DNA from: Limnohabitans sp.
Lineage (GTDB): Bacteria > Pseudomonadota > Gammaproteobacteria > Burkholderiales > Burkholderiaceae_C
Assembly (NCBI GenBank): GCA_021300495.1
Contig: JAJTDK010000006.1
Span: forward strand, 1 to 42,054
DNA length: 42,054 bases
Reading direction: 5' to 3'
Shown one piece after another: positions 7,427-26,543 of this stretch (its first letter is position 1; the number at the start of each line of letters is the position of its first letter). The translations under genes were made by a program, and so were the position numbers. Under the pieces are notes generated by a model that was not told the DNA's origin, did no database searches, and saw only the letters and a list, made by a program, of their open reading frames with translations.

Positions 7427-8938
7427 ATGGATTTGATCAATAACTTGTCCTTGGGTTTTGGTGTTGCTTTCACCTTTCAAAACCTGATTTATGCCTTCAT
7501 TGGTTGTTTGTTGGGTACGCTCATTGGTGTGTTGCCTGGCATTGGCCCTGTGGCCACCATTGCCATGCTGCTGCCCGCAACGTACGCATTGCCTCCCATT
7601 GCAGCCCTCATCATGTTGGCCGGTATTTACTATGGCGCCCAATACGGTGGCTCCACGACTGCTATTTTGGTTAACTTGCCGGGCGAGTCTTCCTCGGTTG
7701 TGACCGTCATTGACGGCTATCAAATGGCTAGAAAAGGACGGGCTGGGCCTGCCTTGGCGGCGGCTGGCATGGGTTCTTTCTTTGCCGGCTGTGTGGGCAC
7801 CCTGATTCTGGCTGCGTTTGCTGCCCCGCTTACCGAGGTGGCCTTTAAATTCGGTCCTGCTGAGTATTTTTCACTCATGATCTTGGGCTTGATTGGCGCT
7901 GTTGTGTTAGCTTCTGGCTCACTTTTGAAAGCAGTTGGCATGATCGTGCTGGGTCTGTTGATGGGCTTGATAGGAACTGACGTGAATTCTGGTGTGGCGC
8001 GCTACAGCTTCGATATTCCAGAACTCACAGACGGCATTGGTTTCATTACCATTGCCATGGGTGTATTTGGTTATGGAGAAATCATTGCCAACCTCGCAAA
8101 GACTGAAGACAAACGAGAAGTGTTTACGGGCAAGGTGACAGGTCTGTTCCCCACCAAAGAAGACTTCCGCAACATGATCCCTGCGATCTTACGAGGTACT
8201 GCCCTGGGATCGATGCTGGGTATTTTGCCAGGTGGCGGTGCGCTCTTGTCTGCTTTTGCGGCCTACACCATCGAGAAGAAAACCAAGCTGCGTCCTGGTG
8301 AAGTGCCCTTCGGTCAAGGCAACATTCGCGGTGTTGCTGCGCCAGAATCGGCCAACAACGCAGGCTCACAAACCTCCTTCATTCCATTGCTCACATTGGG
8401 TATTCCACCCAATGCCGTGATGGCCTTGATGGTCGGTGCCATGACCATTCACAACATTCAGCCTGGCCCTCAAGTGATGACCAGCAACCCAGAGTTGTTT
8501 TGGGGTCTGATTGCCTCGATGTGGATTGGCAATGCCATGCTGATCATCTTGAACCTGCCGCTCATTGGCATCTGGATCAAATTGCTCACTGTGCCTTACC
8601 GATGGTTGTTCCCAGCCATTATTTTGTTCTGCGCCATTGGTGTCTACTCCACCAACAACAACACTTTCGACATCTGGATGGTGGGTGCGTTTGGTGTCAT
8701 TGGTTATACCTTCATCAAACTGGGCATGGAGCCTGCGCCCTTGCTGCTGGGCTTCATCTTAGGCCCCATGATGGAAGAGAACCTACGCCGCGCACTGCTG
8801 CTGTCTCGCGGTGACTGGTCGGTGTTTGTGACACGTGGTTTGTCAGCCAGTCTGCTGGCCGCCGCCGCTGTGTTGCTCATCATCGTGCTTTTGCCTTCTG
8901 TGAAGTCCAAGCGCGAGGAAGCCTTCGTCGAAGACTGA
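7427..8938 (+). CDS. tctA: Tripartite tricarboxylate transporter, large membrane subunit TctA
   Basis: A 503-residue polytopic membrane protein, standard length for TctA. Diagnostic segments are IGVLPGIGPVATIAMLLPATY near the N-terminus, YGAQYGGSTTAILVNLPGE, and GILPGGGALLSAFAAYTIEKK around residues 265-285; the two glycine-rich LPG repeats are the inverted-repeat substrate sites of the family. About a dozen hydrophobic helices are visible. It is the transport channel partner of TctB. The ribosome binding site AAGGAG overlaps the tctB stop region, indicating co-transcription. A strong intrinsic terminator follows at 8961-8987, so tctBA forms a two-gene unit. The substrate cannot be read from the sequence. 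Confidence 0.95.
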   Translation: MDLINNLSLGFGVAFTFQNLIYAFIGCLLGTLIGVLPGIGPVATIAMLLPATYALPPIAALIMLAGIYYGAQYGGSTTAILVNLPGESSSVVTVIDGYQMARKGRAGPALAAAGMGSFFAGCVGTLILAAFAAPLTEVAFKFGPAEYFSLMILGLIGAVVLASGSLLKAVGMIVLGLLMGLIGTDVNSGVARYSFDIPELTDGIGFITIAMGVFGYGEIIANLAKTEDKREVFTGKVTGLFPTKEDFRNMIPAILRGTALGSMLGILPGGGALLSAFAAYTIEKKTKLRPGEVPFGQGNIRGVAAPESANNAGSQTSFIPLLTLGIPPNAVMALMVGAMTIHNIQPGPQVMTSNPELFWGLIASMWIGNAMLIILNLPLIGIWIKLLTVPYRWLFPAIILFCAIGVYSTNNNTFDIWMVGAFGVIGYTFIKLGMEPAPLLLGFILGPMMEENLRRALLLSRGDWSVFVTRGLSASLLAAAAVLLIIVLLPSVKSKREEAFVED

Positions 8939-9028: not shown

Positions 9029-9110
9029 CAAATTTCCTGACACAATTAGTCTTTCAACCCAAAATACCTGACCCCAAAATTCACCCCGTAAGATTTATTT
9101 GGACATGACC

Positions 9111-24439: not shown

Positions 24440-25645
24440 ATGTTGTTACTCGACTCGGCTGTATTTGACGCGGTCATTGACTGGATGGCCAACGGAATCA
24501 TGGGATTTTCGGGTTGGCAAATTTTCTTTGTCATTCTGGGTCTTACCCACATCACGATTGCCAGCGTGACCATCTTCTTGCACCGCCATCAGGCTCACCG
24601 TGCCTTAGATTTGCACCCCATCGCATCGCATTTCTTCCGTTTTTGGTTGTGGATGACCACCGGTCAGGTGACCAAAGAGTGGGCCGCCATTCACCGTAAG
24701 CACCACGCCAAGTGCGAGCAAGCTGAAGACCCGCACAGCCCGCATGTGCACGGCATTCGCACGGTGTTGTTCACCGGTGCCGAGTTGTACCGCAAAGAAT
24801 CTAAAAACAAAGAAACCCTCAGCCGCTATGGCCATGGCACCCCCGACGACTGGATAGAGCGCAATCTGTATTCGCGCTTTTCCTGGCAAGGTGTGGCACT
24901 GATGTTGATCATCGATGTGGCCTTGTTTGGCGCATTGGGCCTTACTGTGTGGGCCGTTCAAATGGCTTGGATTCCAATCACTGCGGCAGGCATCATCAAT
25001 GGTGCTGCCCACTATTGGGGCTACCGCAACTTCGAGGCACACGACGCCAGCACCAACATCTCGCCTTGGGGCATCTTGATTGGTGGTGAAGAGCTGCACA
25101 ACAACCATCACACCTACCCAACGTCTGCCAAGTTGTCGGTCAAGCCCTATGAAATTGATCTGGGCTGGGCGTACATCTGCATCTTGCAAGCTGTAGGTTT
25201 GGCCACTGTGAAAAAGACCCCGCCTGTCTTGGCCTTTGGCGAATTACGCCCTGTGGCTGATGAGAAAACTTTGGAAGCTTTGATCACCAACCGATATGCA
25301 GTCATGGCCGGTTACGCCCGTCAAATGCGCACTGTCTTCCGCCAAGAAGTGGCCAATGCCAAACTTGACGCCAGTGTTTTAAAAGTAGCCAAGCGTTGGA
25401 TTCACCGCGATGGCGACAAAATACCGGCCGAAGCACGCGCCCCTTTGAGCGCCACCCTTGCAGCCTATCCCGTGCTAGACAAAATGTTGGCTATGCGCGA
25501 AGAGCTGCGCCAAATTTGGCTCAACACCTCCCACAACCGCGAACAGTTGGCGCTTGATTTACAAGCTTGGTGTAAACGCGCAGAAGAAAGCGGCATTGCT
25601 GCACTTCGCGACTTCTCCACCCAACTTCGCGCTGCTCGCGCTTGA
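24440..25645 (+). CDS. Acyl-CoA/acyl-lipid delta-9-type fatty acid desaturase
   Basis: A 401-residue integral membrane di-iron desaturase. The three histidine boxes are HRHQAH (48-53), HRKHH (85-89) and HNNHH (220-224), and paired hydrophobic helices lie between boxes. It introduces a cis double bond into saturated acyl chains and so tunes membrane fluidity. The C-terminal 120 residues form a soluble helical extension rich in Ala, Arg and Glu, seen in betaproteobacterial relatives. Upstream 24326-24439 is AT-rich (a candidate -10 in TTAAAATATTAGGAT), compatible with its own promoter. The large inverted repeat at 25661-25844 starts 15 bases after its stop. Confidence 0.92.
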   Translation: MLLLDSAVFDAVIDWMANGIMGFSGWQIFFVILGLTHITIASVTIFLHRHQAHRALDLHPIASHFFRFWLWMTTGQVTKEWAAIHRKHHAKCEQAEDPHSPHVHGIRTVLFTGAELYRKESKNKETLSRYGHGTPDDWIERNLYSRFSWQGVALMLIIDVALFGALGLTVWAVQMAWIPITAAGIINGAAHYWGYRNFEAHDASTNISPWGILIGGEELHNNHHTYPTSAKLSVKPYEIDLGWAYICILQAVGLATVKKTPPVLAFGELRPVADEKTLEALITNRYAVMAGYARQMRTVFRQEVANAKLDASVLKVAKRWIHRDGDKIPAEARAPLSATLAAYPVLDKMLAMREELRQIWLNTSHNREQLALDLQAWCKRAEESGIAALRDFSTQLRAARA

Positions 25646-25660
25646 TCGATTGGGGCGGCC

Positions 25661-25844
25661 AATTTAAATGGGGCAAACAATTGGGGTCAGAGCAACATTA
25701 ATTTCCAATCTGTTTGGGGCAGAGGCTAATGGGGGCTGACGATTTGTGGTACTCCACCATGAGGAAGCCCCCATTAGCCTCTGCCCCAAACAGATTGACC
25801 AAATTAAAGTCGATCTGACCCCAATTGTTTGCCCCATTTAAATT
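25661..25844. repeat. 184-bp nested inverted repeat, MITE- or REPIN-like element
   Basis: The outer arms 25661-25691 and 25814-25844 are perfect 31-base inverted copies, from AATTTAAATGGGGCAAAC to GGGGTCAGA. The inner arms 25707-25737 and 25766-25796 are another perfect 31-base pair, from AATCTGTTTGGGG to AATGGGGGCT. The 15- and 17-base linkers share TTAATTT. A 28-base centre (25738-25765) carries a 4-bp mini hairpin GTGG-TACT-CCAC. Outer and inner arms share a TTGGGG(T)CAGAG core, so the element looks like a repeat unit and its inverted copy. The octamer ATTTAAAT at both ends could be a target duplication or just part of the arms, as it is self-complementary. It contains no open reading frame. 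RNA from either strand would fold into one long hairpin. Confidence 0.88.
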
Positions 25845-25855
25845 TCTCCAGAAAC

Positions 25856-25882
25856 AAAAAAGCCCGCTGATGCGGGCTTTTT
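25856..25882. terminator. rpmG: Bidirectional intrinsic terminator between the desaturase gene and rpmG
   Basis: AGCCCGC-TGAT-GCGGGCT is a perfect 7-bp stem, preceded by A5 (part of a longer A-run) and followed by T4, so it can end transcripts from both strands. It lies 19 bases beyond the rpmG stop and beyond the nested inverted repeat on the desaturase side. Confidence 0.9.
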
Positions 25883-25900: not shown

Positions 25901-26071
25901 TTACTTCAGTTTGATTTCCTTGTACTCAACGTGCTTGCGAGCTTTTGGGTCGAACTTCATGATCGACATTTTCTCGGGCATTGTTTTCTTGTTCTTGCTG
26001 GTCGTGTAAAAGTGACCAGTTCCAGCTGTAGATTCCAGCTTGATTTTTTCGCGTCCGCCTTTGCTTGCCAT
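25901..26071 (-). CDS. rpmG: 50S ribosomal protein L33
   Basis: A 56-residue ribosomal protein, normal length for L33, found by translating the reverse strand from ATG 26071 to TAA 25901. It begins [14 protein letters not shown] and has [12 protein letters not shown] followed by [19 protein letters not shown], typical of L33. There is no CxxC zinc pair, so it is the zinc-independent (C-) form. A ribosome binding site AGGAG lies just before the ATG. It follows rpmB by 21 bases, the usual rpmB-rpmG pair, and a terminator follows. Confidence 0.96.
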
Positions 26072-26513: not shown

Positions 26514-26543
26514 ATTATAGCCAGCTTTTTGGGTCAGAGCCAA
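26514..26543 (-). promoter_or_regulatory. Sigma-70-type promoter of rpmB-rpmG
   Basis: On the minus strand a perfect -10 TATAAT (26519-26514) is preceded by TTGGCT (26543-26538) as -35 with an 18-base spacer. The predicted transcript starts near 26507, about 180 bases before the rpmB ATG. Confidence 0.55.

Follow-up and report, generated by a model that had tools for sequence, protein, structure and literature searches.

The doubly nested inverted repeat at positions 25661–25844 of the window (the whole 42,054-nt stretch of Limnohabitans sp. DNA analysed here) is a real structure and represents one copy of a dispersed, non-autonomous element of the REPIN/MITE-like kind, not a local terminator. 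To judge from its ends, it is very probably a repeat mobilised in trans by the single-copy Y1 (HuH) transposase of the same genome, which belongs to the RAYT superfamily and is of the TIRYT/TIRtron type. The parts of the element and its neighbours are as follows.

25661–25844, no strand assigned: the whole nested inverted repeat, read as a newer mobile element within the residual tips of an older one (repeat search and same-site relatives)
25661–25673, plus strand: residual left tip of the older element, AATTTAAATGGGG (same-site comparison with relatives)
25832–25844, minus strand: residual right tip of the older element, CCCCATTTAAATT (same-site comparison with relatives)
25676–25829, no strand assigned: newer mobile element, putative extent, with 7-nt self-complementary tips (flank pairing across 72 elements)
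25683–25704, plus strand: left terminal repeat, GGGGTCAGAGCAACATTAATTT, one base off the left end of the transposase gene, GGGGTCAGATCAACATTAATTT
25801–25822, minus strand: right terminal repeat, inverted, AAATTAAAGTCGATCTGACCCC (arm pairing and copy comparison)
25706–25737, plus strand: left inner arm (inverted-repeat search)
25766–25797, minus strand: right inner arm (inverted-repeat search)
25738–25765, plus strand: conserved terminal loop of the inner hairpin, GACGATTTGTGGTACTCCACCATGAGGA, in plus orientation (genus-wide loop search)
24440–25645, plus strand: desaturase ORF, a neighbour outside the element (ORF list; family name from the first-pass annotation)
25856–25882, no strand assigned: neighbouring hairpin with A/T tracts on both sides, a two-way terminator by eye (sequence reading)
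25901–26071, minus strand: rpmG-like ORF, a neighbour and the anchor in the same-site comparison (ORF list; name from the first-pass annotation)

The outer arms (25661–25691 and 25814–25844) are perfect over 31 nt, as the first-pass annotation of this DNA had stated, and when extended to 44 nt (25661–25704 and 25801–25844) they match at 93%. The inner arms, spaced 28 nt apart, were also correctly described as perfect, with a length of 32 nt, one more than the 31 given for them. As single-stranded DNA, the 184-nt element folds with a predicted energy of −83.5 kcal/mol, compared with a mean of −22.3 for 200 dinucleotide shuffles, none of which is as stable (z = −19.3). The element starts 15 nt past the end of the desaturase ORF (25645), thus just outside its stop codon as had been noted, and ahead of the rpmG-like ORF. 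A hairpin similar to that at 25856–25882 is found at the same place in relatives both with and without the element.

The genome from which the window comes is a 2.43-Mb draft in 132 contigs, and a search of it with the element gave 98 matches. The terminal repeat GGGGTCAGATCAACATTAATTT, with at most one mismatch allowed, is present 23 times in forward and 23 times in reverse orientation, and its reversed control is absent. In the window and the 18 stretches examined, copies with both ends comprise 17 long ones (136–140 nt from GGGG to CCCC) and seven short ones (29–74 nt), the latter having the same ends and lacking the inner hairpin; one of the 18 rows of the copy table (C57:2802–2979) repeats a copy already read in another row. 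Together with a composite of about 203 nt, the element is thus known in three forms. The copies occupy many unrelated intergenic places, mostly directly after stop codons (20 of 24 are located between ORFs, three at contig edges, and one within a doubtful ORF). Both the dispersed copies and the transposase with matching ends, which the first-pass annotation had proposed looking for, are therefore present in this genome, with copies also in related ones, and its suggestion of a non-autonomous REPIN/MITE-like repeat with RAYT-type transposase ends is supported by this dispersal; the alternative that it named, a structure confined to this locus and lacking other copies, is not what was found. The long copy on contig C57 (L028:2802–2979) has a tandem second right part of 40 nt alongside it, which points to slippage or to another insertion at the element's end. 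Clusters of copies at first brought to mind a genomic island, a candidate that was rejected, as the surrounding ORFs look by eye like ordinary chromosomal genes and the alignment with relatives extends over long stretches around two of the clusters.

The transposase is the single match to PF01797 (Y1_Tnp) in the genome, a protein of 232 residues encoded at C122:32058–32756 and scoring 43.7 bits (cut-off 23). It also matches, barely above the cut-off of 80, the NCBIfam family NF047646 (REP_Tyr_transpos, REP-associated tyrosine transposase; 80.4 bits). The HuH and Y...NP motifs of Y1_Tnp transposases are present, with His60, His62, Tyr120, and Asn124 invariant in 23 homologues and Pro125 nearly so. 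The predicted structure of a 95% identical protein (locus L204, mean pLDDT 72.5) has as its best PDB match 4er8 (E = 9.6e-9), a REP transposase in complex with a REP hairpin, and additionally matches IS608. Three helices are predicted at low confidence in the C-terminal region (residues 167–212), and none of the 23 transposase members matches a helix-turn-helix family in Pfam. The gene is bordered by GGGGTCAGATCAACATTAATTT on the left and by its inverted complement on the right, that is, by the ends of the dispersed copies, and we infer that the transposase acts on the ends of the element. In the genus, GGGGTCAG, which fits the motif GGGGWSAS, is present on both sides of the gene in 21 of the 22 loci compared (out of 30 fetched). 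The exception is G060 (L093, C145), in which the left copy at the gene is damaged (AGGGTCAGATCAACATTTAATT), the dispersed ends number three in each orientation, and no element is seen at the checked sites; its repeat population is possibly dying along with its source ends. In most of these 22 loci, an extra half-end, approximately TTGATCTGTCCCCAATTAAT, lies between the transposase stop codon and the right terminal repeat (L031:7758–7870).

A relative of the transposase is present in 56 of 60 genomes of the genus, and 77 of 80 homologous loci, among them loci from Limnohabitans, Variovorax, Rhodoferax, and Hydrogenophaga, have the start of gltB close by; since this neighbourhood is kept so widely, the transposase is a resident gene. 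The clade with GGGGTCAGATCAACATTAATTT ends has them dispersed (at least six matches) in 16 of the 60 genomes, and a seventeenth, G081, has one match. In 15 of the 16, the transposase is at least 86% identical, in two of them as cut pieces, and the search of the remaining genome (G003, 81% complete) found none. In the other clade, the transposases are 61–65% identical, with GGGGTCAGATCCCAATTAAACT as the left end and GGGGTCAGATCCCAATTAAT as the right one. This left end occurs one to three times per genome in 35 of 60 genomes, with 32 of the 45 matches at the gene itself, a count that covers the left-end form and that dispersed copies of the right end would escape.

The flanks outside GGGG and CCCC also pair with each other. 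Across 72 elements, pairing at positions 1–7 is 94–100% (48–73% is expected at the variable positions 2, 5, 6, and 7) and falls to chance level by position 10. In the genome of the window, the mean is 6.9 bp compared with 3.8 in shuffles, none of 2000 being as high, and the paired 7 nt differ from copy to copy. Flank pairing over 7 nt places the mobile unit here at about 25676–25829, within the limits of the repeat as described initially. At the position of the window's tips, G009, G066, and G012 carry AATTTAAATGGGGTCAGATCAACATTAATTT and AATTTAAATGGGGTCAGATC, while in the genome of the window and in G005 GGGG is followed instead by CAAACAATT and a new element. As read from these alignments, the outer arms consist of two layers, the tips of an older element and a newer element nested inside them. 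Similar tip-in-tip nests are found in the same genome at C126:4106, C42:5196, and C87:30585. In turn, five distinct composites consist of a long element with a short one inserted in its loop, always at the same place, so that they probably go back to one ancestral event that later spread.

The conserved loop of the inner hairpin has a wider distribution than the ends. With up to two mismatches, CGATTTSTGGTACYCCASYATGAGGA is present in 50 of 60 genomes of the genus, many of them from the other clade, and in an order-wide draw it was found in three of 399 genomes (that of the window, one of the genus, and one of the family). Among the loci scanned, the loop also occurs outside the element in 16 cases, either single or as inverted pairs about 126–160 nt apart with other arms; 20 such loops had been listed, four of which were judged to be elements with damaged or cut ends. 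Since the loop is more widely spread than the ends, the long element is most simply explained as transposase ends that captured a hairpin, most likely from an older, genus-wide hairpin repeat, the direction of capture being that suggested by these distributions. An integron attC site was considered for this part and rejected: attC core sites read RYYYAAC...GTTRRRY, and the standalone inner hairpins, which begin with GTTG and end with CAAC, have the reverse polarity.

The arms of the inner hairpin are private to each copy, paired with themselves and unconserved between copies. In 75 distinct long elements, which come from related genomes and include non-independent orthologous copies, 2032 of 2100 arm cells are Watson–Crick pairs (0.60 in shuffles), and 38 elements have no unpaired cell among their 28. 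Three elements paired at fewer than 24 of the 28 positions are kept in this total and left out of the per-column list and of the count of unpaired types given below. Within the 72 well-paired elements, all four Watson–Crick pair types occur at 14 of the 28 arm positions and at least three at 22. Only four of 286 cells are unpaired in 11 orthologues at the site of the window, and yet an average of 12.8 of 26 left-arm positions differ between them, partly through indels and replaced elements. The first-pass annotation had considered the arms to be much better conserved than the linkers, a claim that was mistaken because self-complementarity was confused with conservation: between copies it is the arms that vary most, with the terminal inverted repeat and the terminal loop well conserved. 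Its corollary, that the arms are either conserved or of recent origin, does not agree with same-site orthologues whose arms are widely different yet self-paired. Likewise, the core TTGGGG(T)CAGAG, described as common to outer and inner arms, was found in the window copy only, the inner arms of sister copies being different (for example, AAAGGGGATAAAGG), and an origin by pairing of related repeat units is unsupported, with the core absent from sister copies.

Individual pairs of genomes illustrate how the palindromes change. Between G080 and G001, a single arm change is matched on both arms and the whole element is inverted. Between G009 and G066, the loop alone is inverted and the linkers are identical, while two positions are changed on both arms, one of them being mismatched in G066. 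Over all 75 elements, the linkers and loop are in one phase in 52, in the other phase in 22, and ambiguous in one; a script classified 65 of them (46 and 19) and nine were assigned by eye (6 and 3). These data show that loops have flipped relative to linkers, the phase counts giving no frequency for such flips; the two phases could be two old subfamilies instead of the outcome of many flips. Homogenisation of arms together with inversion of the spacer is the signature of template switching, as described in the available text of PMC8604942 and PMC8794818, and self-paired, drifting arms with a flipped loop are consistent with template switching at the DNA level. The unpaired cells add a further feature. 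Read on the strand that carries the loop in plus orientation, they comprise 28 G–T, six A–C, and ten others in the 72 elements, or 23, six, and ten when counted once per position and context (p = 0.002 for G–T against A–C); with the three poorly paired elements included, there are 35 G–T and 33 others. Template switching alone leaves this excess unexplained, because one-sided transitions should yield G–T and A–C alike, and the loop(+) strand is thus seemingly selected as a hairpin, either as RNA or as single-stranded DNA.

The surroundings of the copies were described with a longest-ORF rule, not with a gene caller. A gene 3′ end was within 39 nt for 23 of the 26 distances measured in the genome of the window and within 12 nt for 19 of the 23 measured in stretches from three relatives, with distances missing for four of 24 elements in the former (three at contig edges, one in the doubtful ORF) and for one of 20 in the latter. 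In all 12 cases with a distance of 2 nt, five of them in the genome of the window, the gene ends on a TAA supplied by the tip of the element itself. Among the 20 placed copies of this genome, eight lie between convergent, ten between tandem, and two between divergent ORFs, compared with 29, 106, and 28 of 163 ORF pairs.

A match to the desaturase was found in 58 of 60 genomes, and 30 loci were fetched and compared. Forms of the element are present in 14 of them (12 whole, one cut by a contig end, and one reduced and folded back), and the other 16, namely G060, G034, and 14 more, lack it; the loop is in plus orientation in six and in minus orientation in six, one of the latter being the element cut by the contig end. 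At two other sites, relatives have a long, short, flipped, or composite element, or none. The comparison of the orthologous gap that the first-pass annotation had proposed thus yielded element-free loci but not the clean empty site that it sought: among the five sites compared, the element was absent, decayed, or re-filled in some relatives, in no case with a clean, defined junction, and we therefore make no claim of a target duplication. The comparison that comes closest, G031 against G020, would by eye allow a duplication of at most 1–3 nt, as judged from a single pair whose flanks match the query at about 80%. The element-free desaturase site of G060 may be a deletion scar. As many copies are common to the clade by position, movement may be slow or past. 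At one site, G003 and G006 have flanks that are 93–96% identical and different elements, and tandem partial ends are present in G012, G003, and G001. In addition, contig C132 of G019 folds back at its reduced element (L061:2704–3433), with the desaturase in both orientations, 97% and 92% identical to that of the window; this is likely an assembly join at the palindrome.

The reading that we tentatively put forward, and to which we give a little less than an even chance, is that of a living TIRYT-linked repeat population with a captured second hairpin, whose palindromes would be continually rewritten at the DNA level, by template switching at the fork or during transposition, and whose hairpin would also be under selection on one strand. 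The private, self-complementary arms and the in-place loop flips would both follow from such rewriting, and the 7-nt tips behave likewise. In the main explanation given at the outset, hairpins that become single-stranded at the replication fork would be the substrate of the transposase, which would cut and paste (or copy) them into AT-rich sites, older copies among them; between moves, polymerase template switching across the arms would mend mismatches and occasionally flip the loop. This would keep the palindrome nearly perfect while its sequence drifts. Some further selection would favour the hairpin formed by the loop(+) strand, the inner hairpin was most likely taken from the older genus-wide repeat, and any role as an RNA structure at the 3′ ends of genes would come second. 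A lesser possibility is that one strand is selected for its single-stranded DNA hairpin, as a transposase substrate or for replicability, combined with ordinary compensatory mutation and no template switching. It accounts for a G–T excess that is irrespective of gene direction and agrees with the strand-specific substrate recognition of REP transposases (as given in the available text of PMC8266576), but it explains neither the 38 elements without any unpaired cell nor the inversion of a loop between nearly unchanged arms, and it may operate jointly with template switching. Selection at the RNA level, in which the element would serve as a 3′-end structure (a transcript stabiliser, an attenuator, or a terminator helper) with arms kept by compensatory selection, seems unlikely. 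Proximity to gene 3′ ends, the strong covariation of the arms, and the 28:6 ratio of G–T over A–C, expected if the loop(+) strand is read as RNA, all speak for it. However, in copies with one nearby gene 3′ end the loop(+) strand is sense in 11 and antisense in ten, which argues against a role in the transcript of the adjoining gene and makes the transposase, through strand-specific recognition, a candidate instead, and one and the same site may hold a long, short, composite, or flipped element, or none, among relatives. Moreover, the stem in the element is followed by AATTGTTTG, with no T tract, and a terminator scan gave two sites, both outside the element (shuffle mean 1.0), a scan that also overlooked the neighbouring hairpin at 25856–25882. 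A known RNA family was rejected as well, as Rfam had nothing above gathering within the element; microRNA families matched below it (best MIR7533, 63 bits against 230) because the hairpin is long and perfect.

The exchange of arms seen at one site could alternatively stem from gene conversion among copies, and ectopic recombination or gene conversion, rather than transposition, might be what reshuffles the interiors at fixed sites. The nearly identical flanks of G003 and G006 around different elements and the tandem partial ends favour this possible, if doubtful, explanation, which leaves unexplained the first arrival at dozens of unrelated sites and the match to the transposase ends; such exchange may act additionally. 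It is very improbable that the arms are perfect merely because the copy is young. Their perfection and the newer insertion nested in G000 (the genome of the window) and G005 would be in line with recent origin, which is contradicted by the 11 nearly perfect but strongly diverged same-site orthologues, unless each of these is an independent insertion, and by the single change found on both arms between G080 and G001. Almost certainly, the repeat is not an artefact of palindromic fold-back in metagenome assemblies or libraries: the genome is indeed a draft of 132 contigs, one of which (C108) folds back over 36 nt around a copy at its end, and the G019 contig folds back at the very site of the window, but the window copy has different genes on either side, and the same elements are present in the one-contig G006 and the near-closed G001 and G031.

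On the grounds of sequence comparison, the repeats constitute a new family, and also a variant form, within the TIRYT-linked REPIN/MITE-like elements, with mobilisation by this transposase as their putative mode of spread. Whereas MITEs such as NEMIS, ERIC, and RUP use DDE-type enzymes, the element described here is linked to a Y1 single-strand transposase, and no clear target duplication was seen for it. It is similar to these MITEs (as listed in the available text of PMC3733652) in its size range of 70–300 bp, terminal inverted repeats, lack of coding capacity, location next to genes, and strong RNA fold. The closest known counterparts are TIRtrons, in which a Y1 gene is bordered by long terminal inverted repeats with the motif GGGGWSAS (BMC Genomics 2013, PMC3733652). 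According to the text available from that source, TIRtrons share with the present system the bordered Y1 gene (GGGGTCAG here), moderately abundant families of terminal repeats, often as dimers, and the lack of relation to GTAG repeats. Here, the terminal repeats likewise recur as inverted dimers (the 23 + 23 matches; 24 inverted pairs in the stretches examined). In contrast to the dimers and clusters described there, most long copies here enclose a second, apparently captured hairpin, their arms are hypervariable yet self-paired, and nested and flipped forms are found at orthologous sites. The element is an inverted doublet of two transposase-linked ends that forms one hairpin and is dispersed and intergenic, in a genome with a RAYT, which it has in common with REPINs as presented in the available text of PLoS Genet 2011 (PMC3116915), as well as the two-sided compensatory changes and singlets as remnants. 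Unlike REPINs as described in that text, it has ends that are 22-nt terminal inverted repeats with no GTAG-type REP palindrome, and the unit, which spans about 139 or 203 nt from GGGG to CCCC, exceeds them in length and includes an inner module carrying the conserved loop. By reading of the sequence, GTAG is absent from 25661–25844, and the element is therefore not classed with the GTAG REPINs. It has arm homogenisation and loop inversion in common with the template-switch cases, which in the available text of PMC8604942 and PMC8794818 concern short repeats within yeast genes, as well as rRNA and microRNA gene hairpins, whereas here a repeat family with arms of 28–32 bp and a 28-nt loop is involved, and the G–T excess is unpredicted by template switching. 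No earlier report of such repeats in Limnohabitans was found in the open literature, most subscription papers lying outside that search.

Long perfect palindromes are generally considered unstable in bacteria. Here, one chromosomal site retains a palindrome of at least 26 bp across most of the clade despite the turnover of its sequence, dozens of other copies resemble it, and arm repair, loop inversion, nested insertion, and loss can be counted from existing genomes. The ends tie a TIR-type RAYT to a sizeable non-autonomous population. If the reading as a living, continually rewritten population is true, the repeats would amount to a natural genome-wide recorder of template switching. Most TIRYTs belong to TnpA-REP subclass 2.1, equivalent to Bertels group 1, and the available text of PMC6006769 reports no REP-like sequences near those genes; on the same reading, a RAYT group reported without REP-like partners would gain one.

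Within the window, single matches to TTGGGGTCAGA with one mismatch are located at 8500–8510, 9067–9077, and 26528–26538, and these are either remnants or chance occurrences. Finally, a second dispersed repeat was noticed, consisting of inverted hairpin pairs with the same conserved loop and different arms, the loops being about 126 nt apart (L120:4879–10746, corresponding to G001:C1:828877–834745, and G000:C26:11576–11728). In G001, four similar copies of this repeat are found within 6 kb, between different genes.
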